A program made the translations under genes and the position numbers. This document shows, in pieces, positions 6,545 to 15,662 of a stretch of DNA of 64,000 nucleotides; position 1 is the stretch's first letter, and the number at the start of each line of letters is the position of its first letter. The notes beneath the pieces were generated by a model, which was not told where the DNA came from, did no database searches, and saw only the letters and a list, made by a program, of their open reading frames with translations. The stretch comes from Oscillospiraceae bacterium. Its GTDB lineage: Bacteria; Bacillota; Clostridia; Oscillospirales; CAG-272. The stretch covers positions 62,001 to 126,000 of the forward strand of contig SVUG01000002.1 in NCBI GenBank assembly GCA_015063385.1, given 5' to 3'.

Positions 6545-7927
6545 GTGTTTTTTATGGGTTTTAAGAAAAACGAGGTCTTTGTTGCAGATATAATTGACAT
6601 CACAAATCTCGGCTTTGGCGTAGCCAAGCGCGAGGGCGAGGTGGTGTTCGTCAGCGGCACTGTGCCCGGCGACGTTGTGCGCGTTAAGATAATAAAAAGT
6701 GAAAAGAGCTATTCGATAGGTCGCGCCGAGGAGATTATAACTCCCTCGCCAATGCGAGTCGGGGACAGATGCGAGAATTCCGCCTGCCGAAGCTGCGCCT
6801 ACAAGTGCATCTCATACTCCGACGAGGCAAAAATCAAGGAGGAGTCGGTGCGACAGGTCTTCAAAAAGGCAGGGCTGTCCGAGGTGCGCGTGATGCCGCT
6901 GGTTAAGTCGCCCATCGAGCGCGGATACAGAAATAAGGCGCAGTACCCCGTGGCACGCGGCAAGGGCGGTGAGTATATCATCGGCTTCTTCGCCCCGAAG
7001 AGTCACCGCGTGACCGAGGCGGCAGACTGCCCTCTCGCACCTGATGTGTTTTCTGAAATTTTGGAGCTTTTGCGTGCGTTTTTTGCCGAAAAACAAATTT
7101 CGGTATACGACGAGGTAAGCGGTGAGGGGCTTCTGCGTCATATTTATTTGCGTCGGGGCGAGGTGTCGGGCGAAATTTTAATTACCTTAGTAATTAACGG
7201 CTGCGCACTTCCACATTCCGACGAGCTTACAGCTCGCATTTGCGAGCGCTTCCCCTCCGTAGTCGGCGTGCTGCTCAATATCAACGAGAAAAGCACGAAC
7301 GTCATTCTCGGAGAGAAATTTATCACCCTCTTTGGCAGGGATTATATATTCGACACGCTGGGCGGTGTGCGGCTGAAAATTACCGCACCGTCGTTCTATC
7401 AGGTCAACCACTCGGCCGCCGAGCTGCTTTATGCCAAGGCGAAGGAGCTGGCCTCTCCCACGAAGGACGACCTTCTCCTCGACCTCTACTGCGGTGCAGG
7501 CTCTATCGGTCTGTCTATGGCTGACGCGGCGGGAGAGGTTATCGGAATTGAGATAGTCGAGAGCGCGGTCGAGTGTGCTCGCTTCAATGCTGAGGCAAAC
7601 GGCATAGCAAACGCATCTTTCTACGCAGGCGATGCAAGCGAGGCGGCAAGACTGCTCGCTCCTGCCGAAGCCGAGCGCGGTGGAAAAATTCTGCCCGATA
7701 TAGTTATCCTCGACCCACCGAGAGCAGGCACGACAAAGGAGCTTATCGAGCATATCGCCACCCTCGCACCGAAAAAGGTGGTCTATATCTCCTGCAACCC
7801 GCAAACGCTGGCAAGGGATATGGTTGTTTTCAAAGAATTCGGCTACGTAGGCAATGAGGTCACGCCGTTTGATTTGTTCCCAATGACAGGGCACGTCGAA
7901 AGTGTCGTTTGTCTGACAAGAAAATGA
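6545..7927 (+). CDS. rlmD: 23S rRNA (uracil-C5)-methyltransferase, RlmD/RumA family
   Basis: LLLDLYCGAGSIGLSMA, ILDPPRAGT, VVYISCNPQTLARD, C-terminal GHVESVVCLTRK. Confidence 0.95.
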   Translation: MFFMGFKKNEVFVADIIDITNLGFGVAKREGEVVFVSGTVPGDVVRVKIIKSEKSYSIGRAEEIITPSPMRVGDRCENSACRSCAYKCISYSDEAKIKEESVRQVFKKAGLSEVRVMPLVKSPIERGYRNKAQYPVARGKGGEYIIGFFAPKSHRVTEAADCPLAPDVFSEILELLRAFFAEKQISVYDEVSGEGLLRHIYLRRGEVSGEILITLVINGCALPHSDELTARICERFPSVVGVLLNINEKSTNVILGEKFITLFGRDYIFDTLGGVRLKITAPSFYQVNHSAAELLYAKAKELASPTKDDLLLDLYCGAGSIGLSMADAAGEVIGIEIVESAVECARFNAEANGIANASFYAGDASEAARLLAPAEAERGGKILPDIVILDPPRAGTTKELIEHIATLAPKKVVYISCNPQTLARDMVVFKEFGYVGNEVTPFDLFPMTGHVESVVCLTRK

Positions 7928-8030
7928 GTGAAAATCGGCTTAAAATATGCAAAAATCAAGCCGTTTTAAACGATTTTGAGATAAAAATCCAAAAAATCGG
8001 TGTTCAAAAACAAAAATGCCCCAATTTTGC
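7892..8030 (+). repeat. rlmD 3'-end repeat R1 (native rlmD tail plus downstream)
   Basis: Homologous to 8564-8751 and 9311-9500. Confidence 0.85.
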
Positions 8031-8113
8031 CTTGGGACAAATGATAGTTTTGAGCGAAACTCAAAACTATCATTTACAGCTGTTTGGTATAACATGTCGA
8101 AAGGAGTTGAAAT

Positions 8114-8497
8114 ATGAAAAAGAGAATATCCGAACTCGAAAAATATTATTCAGGGTTTCCCGAATGGTATTGGATATATGGTCTGCATGATGCGGAAATT
8201 TTGTCCTTTTCAGAAATGCAGTTACCTCCCGATTGGAAAAGTAAAACTCCGCGATATAACTGCTTGGAAATTCAATTAAATTCTGTCGGTGCAATGACAA
8301 AAATCAAAAAAATTGTGTTTTATAATTATTCCTTGAAAAGCGATTTTGATATAAGCACATTGAAAAAGCCTTGGTGGATGGGAGATAAGTTAACCCTTTT
8401 GCCAGATAACCGCTTTTTACTCGAAGTGGAAATAGAGGATGCAAAAGGCGAAAGATATGTTTTCTCCATAACTTTCGAAGATGTATCCGTGAAATAA
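8114..8497 (+). CDS. Hypothetical protein (AT-rich orphan, 127 aa)
   Basis: Intact ORF MKKRISELEKYYSGFPEWYWIYGLHDAEILSF... with upstream AAAGGAG. Confidence 0.65.
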   Translation: MKKRISELEKYYSGFPEWYWIYGLHDAEILSFSEMQLPPDWKSKTPRYNCLEIQLNSVGAMTKIKKIVFYNYSLKSDFDISTLKKPWWMGDKLTLLPDNRFLLEVEIEDAKGERYVFSITFEDVSVK

Positions 8498-8563
8498 AAA
8501 TATACCTTTTGTCGTTACAACCCCCGTTTTTGCCCGATTTTTATACCTTTTGGAGTCTTGACC

Positions 8564-8751
8564 CACGTTGAGAATGTGGTTTGTCTGACGAGGAAATAAA
8601 CCCAAAACGGCTTAAAACAGGTAAAAATGAGCCTTTTTGAGTGGTTTTGAGAGAAATTCAAAAAATCGGTGTTCAAAATCAAAAAATGCCCCAATTTTGA
8701 AAAATGTATTTTTGAAATAGAAAGCAAATTAAATAGCAAATGATTTTGACC
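8564..8751 (+). repeat. rlmD 3'-end repeat R2
   Basis: CACGTTGAGAATGTGGTTTGTCTGACGAGGAAATAA still encodes HVENVVCLTRK*; followed by the same downstream sequence as R3. Confidence 0.85.
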
Positions 8752-8801
8752 TTGTAAATGAGCTTAAAAGTGTACTTTATCTTAAAAAAGAGGATAATTA
8801 T

Positions 8802-9284
8802 ATGAGAAATAAGAAGCGAAAAATTAAAGATGGCAGATGGTTCAGAGAATTTGACTTCACTTTTAATACAAGAGTTTTTTTCACCATAAAAACAGATAAT
8901 TTCATAATTCGTTTCACGGGCGGAAGCTTGATTATATCCGATAAAAACGATAGAGAGCTTGCAAGGCTCGGCGGATACAATTATTTATATACGGGTGACG
9001 TTACGCCTGACGAAAAGGAACTGTTTGCTTTGGAAAACGGAAAACATTTTTACGTTATATCTTTAGAGGATTTTACGCAAAAGCGCAAAATCACTCTTCC
9101 CCGCTCTTACGAGGCAATCGACGTTTACGGAAGCTATTCGGACGACGGCAAATTTTTATACGTACCGATTTGCAAATGGTTAGATAATGGTTATAAATAC
9201 TGCTTATGTGAATACGAAACAGACACATACTCATTATTGACTATGAAAGAAATTAAAGAATCCAAAGTGCCTGCTTGGCCGTAA
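8802..9284 (+). CDS. Hypothetical protein (160 aa, beta-rich)
   Basis: Intact ORF MRNKKRKIKDGRWFREFDFTFNTRVFF... between repeats R2 and R3. Confidence 0.65.
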   Translation: MRNKKRKIKDGRWFREFDFTFNTRVFFTIKTDNFIIRFTGGSLIISDKNDRELARLGGYNYLYTGDVTPDEKELFALENGKHFYVISLEDFTQKRKITLPRSYEAIDVYGSYSDDGKFLYVPICKWLDNGYKYCLCEYETDTYSLLTMKEIKESKVPAWP

Positions 9285-9310
9285 ATAAATATACCTATTG
9301 TCGTTCCACC

Positions 9311-9500
9311 CACGTCGAGAGTGTCGTTTGTCTGTCACGAAAACAAGCCAAAAACGGCTTAAAACAGGTAAAAATGAGCCTTTTTGAGTGGTTTTGAGAG
9401 AAAAATTCAAAAAAACGGTGTTCAAAATTAAAAAATGCCCCAATTTTGAAAAATGTATTTTTGAAATAGAAAGAAAATTAAATAGCAAATGATTTTGACC
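9311..9500 (+). repeat. rlmD 3'-end repeat R3 (coding tail degenerate)
   Basis: CACGTCGAGAGTGTCGTTTGTCTGTCACGAAAACAA (HVESVVCLSRKQ, stop lost); rest nearly identical to R2. Confidence 0.85.
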
Positions 9501-9556
9501 TGAAATATACCTTTCGCCCACGCTTAGAGGTGGACACTTAATCGGAGGAAATACTT

Positions 9557-10357
9557 ATGAAATTTAAAATTGATCACGACTATCACATTCACTCAAAATT
9601 ATCTTCCTGCTCAAGAGATCCCGAACAGACCGGCGATAGAATGCTTGACTATGCAAGGAAAAACGGACTTTCCCGAATCTGTGTAGCCAATCACTACTGG
9701 GACAGTGCCGTTGAGGGTGCGTCCGGCTGGTATAAGCCACAGAATTTCGAGCATATCTCAAAGGACTGCCCTCTGCCGAAGGCTGACGGAATTGAATTTC
9801 TCTTCGGCTGCGAGTGCGAAATGGACAAATTTATGACTCTCGGTATGCCTGTGCAGAGATTTGACGATTTTGATTTCGTCATAATCCCCACTACGCATCT
9901 ACACATGACGGGATTTACCATCACCGCCGAGGACGCCGAGAGCAAGGATAGGATAGCAGAGCTGTGGGTTAAGCGACTTGAGGCTCTTCTCAATATGCCT
10001 CTTCCCTTTCACAAGATTGGTATTGCACACCTTGCCTGTGACTTGATAAACAAAAAATCGAGGCAGGATTTTCTCGAAACGCTAAAGCTGATTTCAAGCG
10101 AGGATATGGAGCGATTGTTCAAAAAGGCGGCAAAGCTCGGCTGCGGAATTGAGCTGAATCAGAGCGATATGTCCTTCTCTGACGAGGAGGCGGATATAGT
10201 GCTTCGTTCGTTCAGAATCGCCAAGGAGTGCGGCTGCAAATTTTATCTCGGCAGTGACGCTCATCATCCAAAGGATTTTGAAAATGCCAAAGAGATTTTC
10301 GAGCGGGCGGTCACGCTTCTCGATTTGAGAGAGGATGATAAATTTCATATAGGATAA
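9557..10357 (+). CDS. PHP-domain phosphoesterase
   Basis: DHDYHIHSKLSSCSRDPEQTGDRMLDYARKNGLSRICVANHYWD and LGSDAHHPKDFE metal-ligand motifs. Confidence 0.85.
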   Translation: MKFKIDHDYHIHSKLSSCSRDPEQTGDRMLDYARKNGLSRICVANHYWDSAVEGASGWYKPQNFEHISKDCPLPKADGIEFLFGCECEMDKFMTLGMPVQRFDDFDFVIIPTTHLHMTGFTITAEDAESKDRIAELWVKRLEALLNMPLPFHKIGIAHLACDLINKKSRQDFLETLKLISSEDMERLFKKAAKLGCGIELNQSDMSFSDEEADIVLRSFRIAKECGCKFYLGSDAHHPKDFENAKEIFERAVTLLDLREDDKFHIG

Positions 10358-10388: not shown

Positions 10389-10589
10389 GGAGGATATTAT
10401 GTACGATATTCAAAACAGATGGAAGCTTGAGGGAAGCAGCTTGCAATATTACGGCTTGAGAAGCAGCCCGAATATGTTTAAAAATAGCGTCAGGCTGACA
10501 AAAAAGCAGCTTGATATTATTAAAAAAATGCCTTGCGATATGACAGAGGACGAAATATGCGTGCTCGGGGAGCTTGTTGGCGTGCAAAT
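10389..10589 (+). repeat. 201-bp direct repeat, copy 1
   Basis: Near-identical to 12794-12994, includes RBS and the first ~60 codons. Confidence 0.92.
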
Positions 10590-10875
10590 CGAGAGCGACG
10601 AGCCGTACATCCGCGACGCGCACAGGCTATGCCCTGAGTCAGTATCGGGGCGGAGCGATATTGTCACCTGCCTTGGCTGGCATAGCTACAAAAAATCAAA
10701 CCAGCTCTGGCACGTCGGCGGCGTCGGCACGTTCCGCTCGTCTATCATCATAAACAGGCCAAGGAAAATCGGTGTCGTGGTGCTTGGCAACTCAAAGGGA
10801 CGGGCATCGGCAAACGTGCATTATCTTGCAAAAATGCTTTACAGCGAAATGAAAATCAAGAAAATAATTTTTTAA
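10399..10875 (+). pseudogene. Chimeric remnant: duplicated N-terminal domain joined to the C-terminal fragment of a class C beta-lactamase-like serine hydrolase
   Basis: N-term [30 protein letters not shown] shared with the 12804 ORF; C-term GWHSYKKSNQLWHVGGVGTFRSSIIINRPRKIGVVVLGNS resembles serine-hydrolase C-termini, catalytic SxxK absent. Confidence 0.65.
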
Positions 10876-12793: not shown

Positions 12794-12994
12794 GGAGGAT
12801 ATTATGTACGATATTCAAAACAGATGGAAGCTTGAAGGAAGTGTTTTGCAATATTACGGCTTGAGAAGCAGCCCGAATATGTTTAAAAATAGCGTCAGGC
12901 TGACAAAAAAGCAGCTTGATATTATTAAAAAAATGCCTTGCGATATATCAGCAGACGAAATCTGCGCGCTCGGTGAGCTTATTGGCGTGCAAAT
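12794..12994 (+). repeat. 201-bp direct repeat, copy 2
   Basis: Near-identical to 10389-10589. Confidence 0.92.
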
Positions 12995-14192
12995 AGTGAA
13001 AGCCGAGGATAAAAAATCGACGCCGACGTCTTTGAGCGAAGCGCGATTTTGCAAAACCTGCATTGCAAACGACTTTATCATTCCCGGTATTGAATTTGAT
13101 GCCGAGGGCAGATGCCCTATCTGTCAAAGTGCCGATATAACCCGAGGATTCAAGAGCGTAGTTCCTGTTATGAACAGCTTCCCAAGGGCAAAGAAATCCC
13201 GCTTTGATATTGCCGTATTCTATACGGGCGGCAAGGATTCTACATATCTGCTTTATTATCTTTCAAAGGTACTAAATCTTCGTGTGCTTGCACTCACCTG
13301 GGAAATTCCTTATATGTCGGAATGCGCAAGACGGAGCATTGAAAACGCAAAAAACAAATTGGATTCGGTAGAGTTCATTACAAGAAGAATCTCTAACGAG
13401 GATTTAAGAAAAATATACAAAAAGCTCTACTCATTGAGCGAAAACACCTGTGCATGTCCGTCGCTTGCTTACGTATTATTCTATCCCGAGCTTGTGATTA
13501 ACAGAGTGCCTTATTTTGTTGTCGGAAACGAACCGGCACAACTGCTTGGACTGTATTATAACCATATGGCACCGAAAATAGCATACACGTTCCCCGAAAA
13601 CAAGCCGCTTAACGCCATGTTTAATCTCGGCAGAATTCTGACTTTCAGACCACCGCTTAAAAGGGGACAATTCCACACGCTTGCCACTATGAAGCAGCTC
13701 GCATACGGAGATAATCCCATTAAAAATTGGCTTGGATATTCAAATCAGCTGCTATACAACGTTTGCGAGGCTATAAACGAGGTGCCGAATATTACAAAGC
13801 CGCTTAAAAAGGCTATAAGAACATCTTCCCGCTCGGGCAATATTCCTGCATTTATACAGGTGGATTTAGACGATATATGCGGCGGCATTTACGAGTGGAG
13901 CAAGATAAAAGACGTTATAACGAGAGAGTGTGGCTGGGTTGCACCCGAGGAAACGAGCAAAGGACTGCATACGAGCTGTAAAATTGAAAAGTGCAAGGAG
14001 CACTCGCAATTCGTAAGATTTTATCATATGAGAAGCACTATGATTCCTTTCAGTGCACTTGAAATTGCTATTGCGAGCCGAAATAAAAACCTCTCACGTG
14101 AAGAGGCTCTCCTTGAGCTTAATGAATCGCTTGGATTTTCTCTCGATAAAATTCCTGAGTGTGCCATTATGACGGAGTATTTTGAAGAATGA
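12804..14192 (+). CDS. PP-loop ATPase, N-acetyl sugar amidotransferase-like, with extra N-terminal domain
   Basis: [27 protein letters not shown] paired Cys motifs, [19 protein letters not shown]-loop, C-term [15 protein letters not shown]. Confidence 0.75.
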
Positions 14193-14876: not shown

Positions 14877-15662
14877 ATGAAAAGAATTTTGATTGACAAA
14901 ATCCCTATTGCGCTCCCAGAGGAAATCGAGGGGCTGTGCCGCGGGGCGAGGATTTTTGACAGCTCCTGCTCGCCTGAGGCTAGGGTTTACTTTATTGACA
15001 AGGACGATGGATATTACCTCAAATGCGCGGCGGCCGGTAGCCTTTTGCGTGAGAAGATAATGACTGAGTACTTTCACAAAAAGGGGCTTGGTGCAGAGGT
15101 GCTATGCTACCGTTCGGGAGAGCGCGACCTGCTCCTTACCGCGCGCGTTGCGGGCGAGGACTGCACGCACGAAAAATATATAAGCGAGCCGAAAAGGCTC
15201 TCTGCCCTTCTCGGAGAGCGGCTGCGCGCCTTGCACGAGGTCGATTTCTCCGACTGTCCCGTAAAGGACCGCGTGAGCGAATATATCGCCCGTGCACAGA
15301 AAAACTACCGCGAGGATAACTACAATAAGGAGCACTTCCCCGATAGCTTCGGCTATCCGTCGGGCGAGGCGGCTATGCGAGCGCTCACCGAGGGAGGTCA
15401 TTTGCTCAAAAACGATGTTCTCCTGCACGGCGACTACTGTATGCCGAATATAATGCTCGACGACTGGAGATTTTCCGGCTTTATTGACGTGGACTCGGCA
15501 GGTGTTGGGGACAGGCATATCGACTTATTTTGGGGCGTATGGTCGCTTCAGTTTAACCTTGGCACGAACGAATTTGCTTCGCGCTTTCTTGACGCTTACG
15601 GCAGAGATAAGGTCAATACCGACATACTGAAAATCGTAGCAGCAGCCGAGGTTTTAGGTTGA
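14877..15662 (+). CDS. Aminoglycoside 3'-phosphotransferase-like kinase
   Basis: LLHGDYCMPNIMLDDWRFSGFIDVDSAGVGDRHIDLFWGVWSL resembles the APH(3') HGDxxxxN and GFID motifs. Confidence 0.8.
   Translation: MKRILIDKIPIALPEEIEGLCRGARIFDSSCSPEARVYFIDKDDGYYLKCAAAGSLLREKIMTEYFHKKGLGAEVLCYRSGERDLLLTARVAGEDCTHEKYISEPKRLSALLGERLRALHEVDFSDCPVKDRVSEYIARAQKNYREDNYNKEHFPDSFGYPSGEAAMRALTEGGHLLKNDVLLHGDYCMPNIMLDDWRFSGFIDVDSAGVGDRHIDLFWGVWSLQFNLGTNEFASRFLDAYGRDKVNTDILKIVAAAEVLG

Follow-up and report, generated by a model that had tools for sequence, protein, structure and literature searches.

Tandem copies of the rlmD 3' end mark a probable attachment site for small gene cassettes in Oscillospiraceae and related Clostridia

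Why should the 3' end of an rRNA methyltransferase gene recur in series, with an orphan gene between one copy and the next? The question is raised by a 64,000-nucleotide stretch of an Oscillospiraceae genome (hereafter the window; assembly GCA_015063385.1, contig SVUG01000002.1, positions 62,001 to 126,000), in which the initial annotation had seen the end of rlmD repeated at 8564 and 9311, had placed one open reading frame (ORF) between each pair of repeats, and had proposed that one-gene cassettes accumulate there by site-specific or tail-homology recombination. The repeats are real and the two ORFs are located as described (Table 1). We consider it likely that the rlmD 3' end is the attachment site for small, nonautonomous gene cassettes, which would integrate serially by conservative site-specific recombination with a recombinase supplied in trans. 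The junctions, the structure of the cassettes, and their exchange between species are direct observations.

Table 1. Features of the cassette locus behind rlmD (window coordinates)
Feature	Position	Strand	Evidence and remarks
rlmD, RumA-type 23S rRNA m5U methyltransferase	6545..7927	+	TIGR00479, 357 bits; last codons are the proposed attachment site
Cassette E1: tail R1 (HVESVVCLTRK and stop), AT-rich post-tail region, hairpin leader, gene 1	7892..8563	+	CAYGT sites at both bounds; first 237 bp 83% identical to G016
E1 leader, conserved: GGGACAAATG, inverted repeat 8039-8075, TTTACAGCTGTTTGGTATAACATGTCGAA, ribosome-binding site	8027..8113	+	Common to cassettes of other species
Gene 1 of E1, 127 aa	8114..8497	+	No function by family search; homologues in five other species
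Left arm before R2: TTTATACCTTTTGGAGTCTTGACC	8540..8563	+	Junction score 64.9
Cassette E2: tail R2 (HVENVVCLTRK and stop), AT-rich region, gene 2	8564..9310	+	Tail comparison and junction scoring
Gene 2 of E2, 160 aa	8802..9284	+	66% identity with the sole gene of a cassette in L294
Left arm before R3: AAATATACCTATTGTCGTTCCACC	9287..9310	+	Junction score 40.9
Unit E3, gene-less, tail R3 without stop	9311..9518	+	Tail comparison, sequence reading
Arm remnant ATATACCTTTCGCC ahead of R4	9505-9518	+	Read from sequence
Vestigial tail R4, degenerate fourth copy, CACGCTTAGAGGTGG	9519..9533	+	Read from sequence
PHP-domain gene	9557..10357	+	PF02811 near cut-off; 70% identical genes within cassettes of L042 and L123
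Phosphotransferase-like (kinase-like) gene, conserved chromosomal neighbor past the variable interval	14877..15662	+	1.16 to 12.4 kb behind rlmD in relatives

Within the window, R1 is rlmD's own working tail and starts at 7892; it is 65% identical to R2. R3 matches R2 at 90% identity over 96 nt, and in their 3' parts the two agree at 96% over 104 nt. As the initial annotation had it, R2 still encodes a complete tail, a short vestige follows near 9518, and R3, which reads HVESVVCLSRKQAKNG..., has lost its immediate stop. With R3 as the query, the 1.69-Mb genome yielded three copies only (E values of 6e-100, 2e-76, and 4e-33; the next match had an E value of 0.01). This search for tail copies across the genome, which had been suggested as a check, thus returned local ones alone, and a generic dispersed repeat was rejected.

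Three features go beyond that annotation: a conserved arm lies ahead of every extra tail copy (R2, R3, and, as a remnant, R4); the unit E3 is gene-less, probably a decayed or deleted cassette; and homologues of the PHP-domain gene are cassette genes in relatives. The PHP gene itself is probably the gene of an older cassette. We rejected it as the chromosomal flank, because relatives have PHP homologues within cassettes and the conserved flank is the kinase-like gene at 14877. Family searches with genes 1 and 2 returned no match. The window's tails are of an AT-rich type without a tail hairpin, a type also found in G016 (83% identity over 237 bp). In the window (8501-8541) and in many cassettes (e.g., L049, L054, L110, and L124), the end arm occurs once more inside the cassette, 41 bp ahead of the junction (ATACCTTTTG...ACCCCCGTTTTTG...); this inner copy may have been left by an earlier event or may offer a recombinase another binding site. 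Farther into the variable interval, an N-terminal part of 46 aa is duplicated (10399-10875 and 12804-14192). The first copy is fused to a beta-lactamase-like C terminus, making this a partial duplication, and relatives also have such a start near rlmD.

How widespread is this arrangement? We located rlmD in 59 relatives, all of them metagenome-assembled genomes (MAGs), and fetched and compared the regions behind it, which showed the same tail-repeat pattern with other genes. A position matrix refined on the collected loci defined a conserved junction, AATATACCTTTTGGAGTCTTGACC joined to CACGTCGAAAGTGTCGTTTGTCTG, with about 46 conserved bp. It detected 170 junctions in 1.59 Mb of the relatives' loci and none in reversed or complemented controls. 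The exact junction pattern occurred in 105 stretches of an 85,000-species genome collection; among the matches listed, all were MAGs of Clostridia, Oscillospiraceae, or Clostridiales, and the named sources were mostly herbivore hindgut. When the window's family was sampled, the junction was present in 18 of 71 genera, and a reversed control pattern gave no match. Identical junctions in many MAGs from several studies led us to reject an assembly artifact. Carriage of the cassettes by phages or plasmids likewise found no match to support it; the exact pattern was absent from 2.9 million viral contigs.

Of 98 loci with junctions from the genome collection, 43 had rlmD directly upstream on the same strand, and in 51 the upstream sequence was too short to judge; the rest had an RlmD-like gene close by (two), a serine integrase (one), or no rlmD within 7.5 kb (one). 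Every junction in the first set of arrays was on the rlmD strand. The last junction scored lowest in 8 of the 10 arrays having several scored junctions, as expected if arrays grow beside rlmD and old copies decay. At two loci (L235 and L253), the gene beside a cassette junction is another RlmD-like methyltransferase, with 35% identity to rlmD; in L253 it sits between two junctions. It may be an alternative target that is itself cargo. In another family of the order (L077, genome G054), two extra rlmD-like tails (HAIVPRHVECVILMTKNG and HAIVPRHVETVVLMTKE) occur at distances of 615 and 2511 nt past the rlmD stop. Their left motif is another one (TTTTTATTCACGCTATTGTCCCCAGG), and they may represent an independent form of the system.

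What do the cassettes carry, and do they move? Among the 90 unique complete cassettes, the median length is 834 bp. A single sizeable ORF is present in 55 of them, and 113 of the 116 ORFs are in the rlmD orientation. Their cargo includes an HpaII-type restriction endonuclease, a cytosine methyltransferase, HNH, GIY-YIG, and DUF559 nucleases, glycosidases (GH43 and GH39), peptidases, DUF4886 proteins, and many unknowns, and nearly every matched family occurs once. One array interval (L257, 2673-5461) holds both a cytosine DNA methyltransferase and an HpaII-type restriction endonuclease, a whole restriction-modification system as cargo. Among relatives, the interval from rlmD to the kinase-like gene ranges from 1.16 to 12.4 kb. 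The genomes G028 and G061 have a cassette in common at 94.7% nucleotide identity over 1102 bp with rlmD genes 66.8% identical, and G006 and G061 share one at 95.7% over 843 bp with rlmD genes about 66-67% identical. The homologue of gene 2 in L294 stands alone between two perfect junctions. Gene 1 homologues directly follow a gene for a four-helix-bundle protein (TIGR02436) in G009 and G060 and lie shortly downstream of one in G020; in G009 and G020 these contexts sit behind tRNA ends. The comparison of rlmD-downstream regions, also proposed at the outset, therefore revealed cassettes gained, lost, and horizontally exchanged between tail repeats; it excludes a fixed-gene arrangement and supports the accumulation of one-gene cassettes at the rlmD tail.

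The E1 leader, whose core motif recurs in 27 of the 90 cassettes, is a putative promoter. Mosaic cassettes (L044/L110, L049/L109, and window 8027-8113) have the same leader-plus-gene module with and without a four-helix-bundle part, so the GGGACAAATG leader may be another point of exchange.

How might such arrays be built? In the mechanism that we propose, each cassette opens with a replacement for the last rlmD codons (CAYGTNGARAGYGT...), and its other end is a conserved arm of 24 bp (ATACCTTTTGGNNTNNTGACC). Crossover at or beside the step between CAY and GT would join the rlmD body to the incoming tail, restoring the protein, and would leave the old tail downstream, behind the left arm of the cassette. 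Repetition would produce an array in which the newest cassette adjoins rlmD. The recombinase would be supplied in trans; the absence of one from the window, already reported in the initial annotation, held up among the window's genes.

Many cassettes begin with a hairpin that takes in the tail: its 5' arm encodes the RlmD tail, and its 3' arm lies inside the cassette (e.g., GTTGAATCTGTCGTTTG/CAAACGACAGATTCAAC and GTCGAGTCTGTCGTTTG/CAAACGACAGACTCGAC). In the 17 hairpin tails of our selection, 95% of cells pair; two-sided changes number 41, compared with 14.3 in shuffles (none of 500 reached the observed count) and at most seven in slid controls, and an HVE-type tail is kept in all 17. Swapping 3' halves among all tails, a weak control because many tails are of one type, gave 20 observed against a mean of 12.7 and a maximum of 18; the aligned covariation test is the better one. 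Pairing also occurs where the tail is rlmD's own (L042, L043, L048, L058, and L118), which indicates that the last codons there came from the incoming cassette. Hairpin-type cassettes bring the tail with them.

Behind the hairpin, many cassettes continue with an array of small hairpins set apart by a constant spacer word (AGTGAAGTT, ATGAATT, GCGATAT, or GTGATAT) and then the complement; one such region folds with z = -9. The Rfam model Gut-1 (RF01706) matches these arrays at 52 bits in one relative (gathering threshold of 50) and at 26-45 bits in others, so we call them Gut-1-like; the window, with its own sequence type, gave no Gut-1 match. Gut-1 was previously known only from human gut metagenomes, as a presumed noncoding RNA (PMC2864571). 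By tblastn, a TIGR02436 gene was found in 21 of the 90 cassettes, at 218-346 nt; both window cassettes are without one, and the genome's single copy is on another contig. In the same genus, four-helix-bundle genes and hairpin arrays, with spacer and then complementary words, also occur behind tRNA genes (Gln, Cys, Leu, Met, and others; L161, L162, L163, L166, L167, L168, L345, and L348), sometimes with a copied tRNA end. These are probably sister elements with other target sites. Our guess is that hairpin, Gut-1-like array, and four-helix-bundle protein play a role in mobility or in insulation from rlmD transcription.

Which activity moves the cassettes? Two relatives (G027 and L307) have a large serine integrase gene, 91% identical between them, that ends in an rlmD tail (DNDTQVETIVCLCKQ and DNDTQVESLVCLTRK, each followed by a stop) with a cassette array behind it, and G027's own rlmD has a long foreign C-terminal extension. 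This shows that a large serine integrase uses the rlmD crossover point in these bacteria. The integrase junction and the cassettes have the right half and the crossover point in common. Taking the G027 enzyme as the proven cassette recombinase is unsupported, since the left arm of its junction matches the cassette arm not significantly better than shuffles do (P = 0.08-0.17). No PF07508 match was found in the window's genome, which is 88% complete, and no recognized recombinase of the listed families in 57 cargo representatives of the scanned cassettes. We favor a dedicated recombinase acting in trans and give it the highest weight; serine integrases like those of rumA integrative and conjugative elements (ICEs) are the best candidate class, because two relatives have one recombined at the same point. 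The host's own Xer-like tyrosine recombinase is a very improbable agent. Most of the array genomes tested have a conserved protein of this kind, ~350 aa long, and G007, G065, and G076 have no other PF00589 match, but no dif-like sequence was recognized at the junctions, judged by eye, and MAGs often lack mobile genes.

Of the two routes named in the initial annotation, the site-specific one is favored and tail homology is disfavored: most neighboring tails share only ~24 bp, while 24 bp across the joint are also conserved. Homologous recombination or tandem duplication between tail copies, needing no dedicated recombinase, would account for the ~190 bp that R2 and R3 have in common at 90-96% identity, and that likeness suggests that E2 or E3 may stem from local duplication and deletion. 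As a general explanation we find it improbable, given that the cassettes hold unrelated genes and differ in post-tail type, that the conserved left arm lies outside the tail homology, and that an identical junction occurs in 18 genera. It is similarly improbable that the hairpin module itself moves the cassettes, with the four-helix-bundle protein and the folded array acting on single-stranded DNA or RNA, much as has been suggested for 23S rRNA intervening sequences, and with module-less cassettes mobilized in trans. The fixed position of the TIGR02436 genes, the same protein and arrays at tRNA genes, the covarying hairpin located at the cassette's extreme end, and the stable array fold all point that way; most cassettes, however, have no TIGR02436 gene, and the conserved left arm resembles a recombinase site rather than a hairpin. 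Moreover, we know of no catalytic activity in this protein family. It is known from 23S rRNA intervening sequences, and no function is given for it (PMC4990558). A tentative, rather doubtful reading makes the whole an integron-like system, with the coding end as attachment site, the tail-encoding hairpin as part of the recombination element, and the four-helix-bundle protein and Gut-1 array as its mobility module; if true, two orphan families would gain a function together.

To our knowledge, this part of the Clostridia has no known integron-like gene-capture array, and in the open-access papers that we searched such arrays are not described. The system spans the family, in animal-gut bacteria, and takes genes for restriction enzymes and hydrolases, along with many unknowns, from one genus to another. 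It also shows how cassette replacement drives the evolution of the RlmD C terminus. The arrays also provide a genomic home for Gut-1-like RNA and a class of S23/IVP-like proteins, and the 46-bp junction is a searchable tag for new accessory genes.

How does the array compare with known systems? Integrons resemble it: cassettes, most with a single gene and together of mixed function, stand in tandem at one chromosomal site, share one orientation, and are exchanged between species; the 90 cassettes here are likewise mostly of one gene and on the same strand. They differ in that the site here is the coding end of rlmD, an rlmD tail stands in place of attC, and some cassettes have a putative promoter of their own. 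No IntI was found near the window's array (the genome's PF00589 proteins are on other contigs). We rejected attC by inspection: no RYYYAAC ... GTTRRRY pair lies between cassettes, the polarity of the tail hairpins is reversed (GTTGAAA ... TTTCAAC), and the window's junctions are without a long hairpin. The 23S rRNA intervening sequences (S23p/IVP) share the TIGR02436 protein, a hairpin-rich insert, and a patchy, horizontally transferred distribution, whereas the present insertions lie behind rlmD and tRNA genes, not inside the rRNA, and bring extra cargo genes. Gut-1 shares three small hairpins, their separation by repeated words, and an origin in gut bacteria; in this system, mobile cassettes have the motif as their 5' part, with other spacer words and a complementary second half beyond the Rfam model.

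Closest in target are the rumA/rlmD-targeting ICEs with a serine integrase, streptococcal or, like CTn5, of Clostridioides difficile, which use the same gene and region and replace the C terminus; one such element is present here in G027 and L307. Reciprocal exchange of the 3' end has been described for the streptococcal elements (PMC4701971) and a rumA fusion by CTn5 in C. difficile (PMC4320837). The cassettes, too, cross over in the rlmD 3' end and exchange its C terminus, but at about 0.2-4 kb they are without integrase and conjugation genes, accumulate serially, and have another left arm; integrase genes are absent from the window's cassettes and from the families listed for the 57 cargo representatives and occur only in the separate G027 and L307 elements. 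Thus, while lacking the defining features of an integron, the array works like one, and, without the genes of rumA ICEs, it has the same target and the same outcome.
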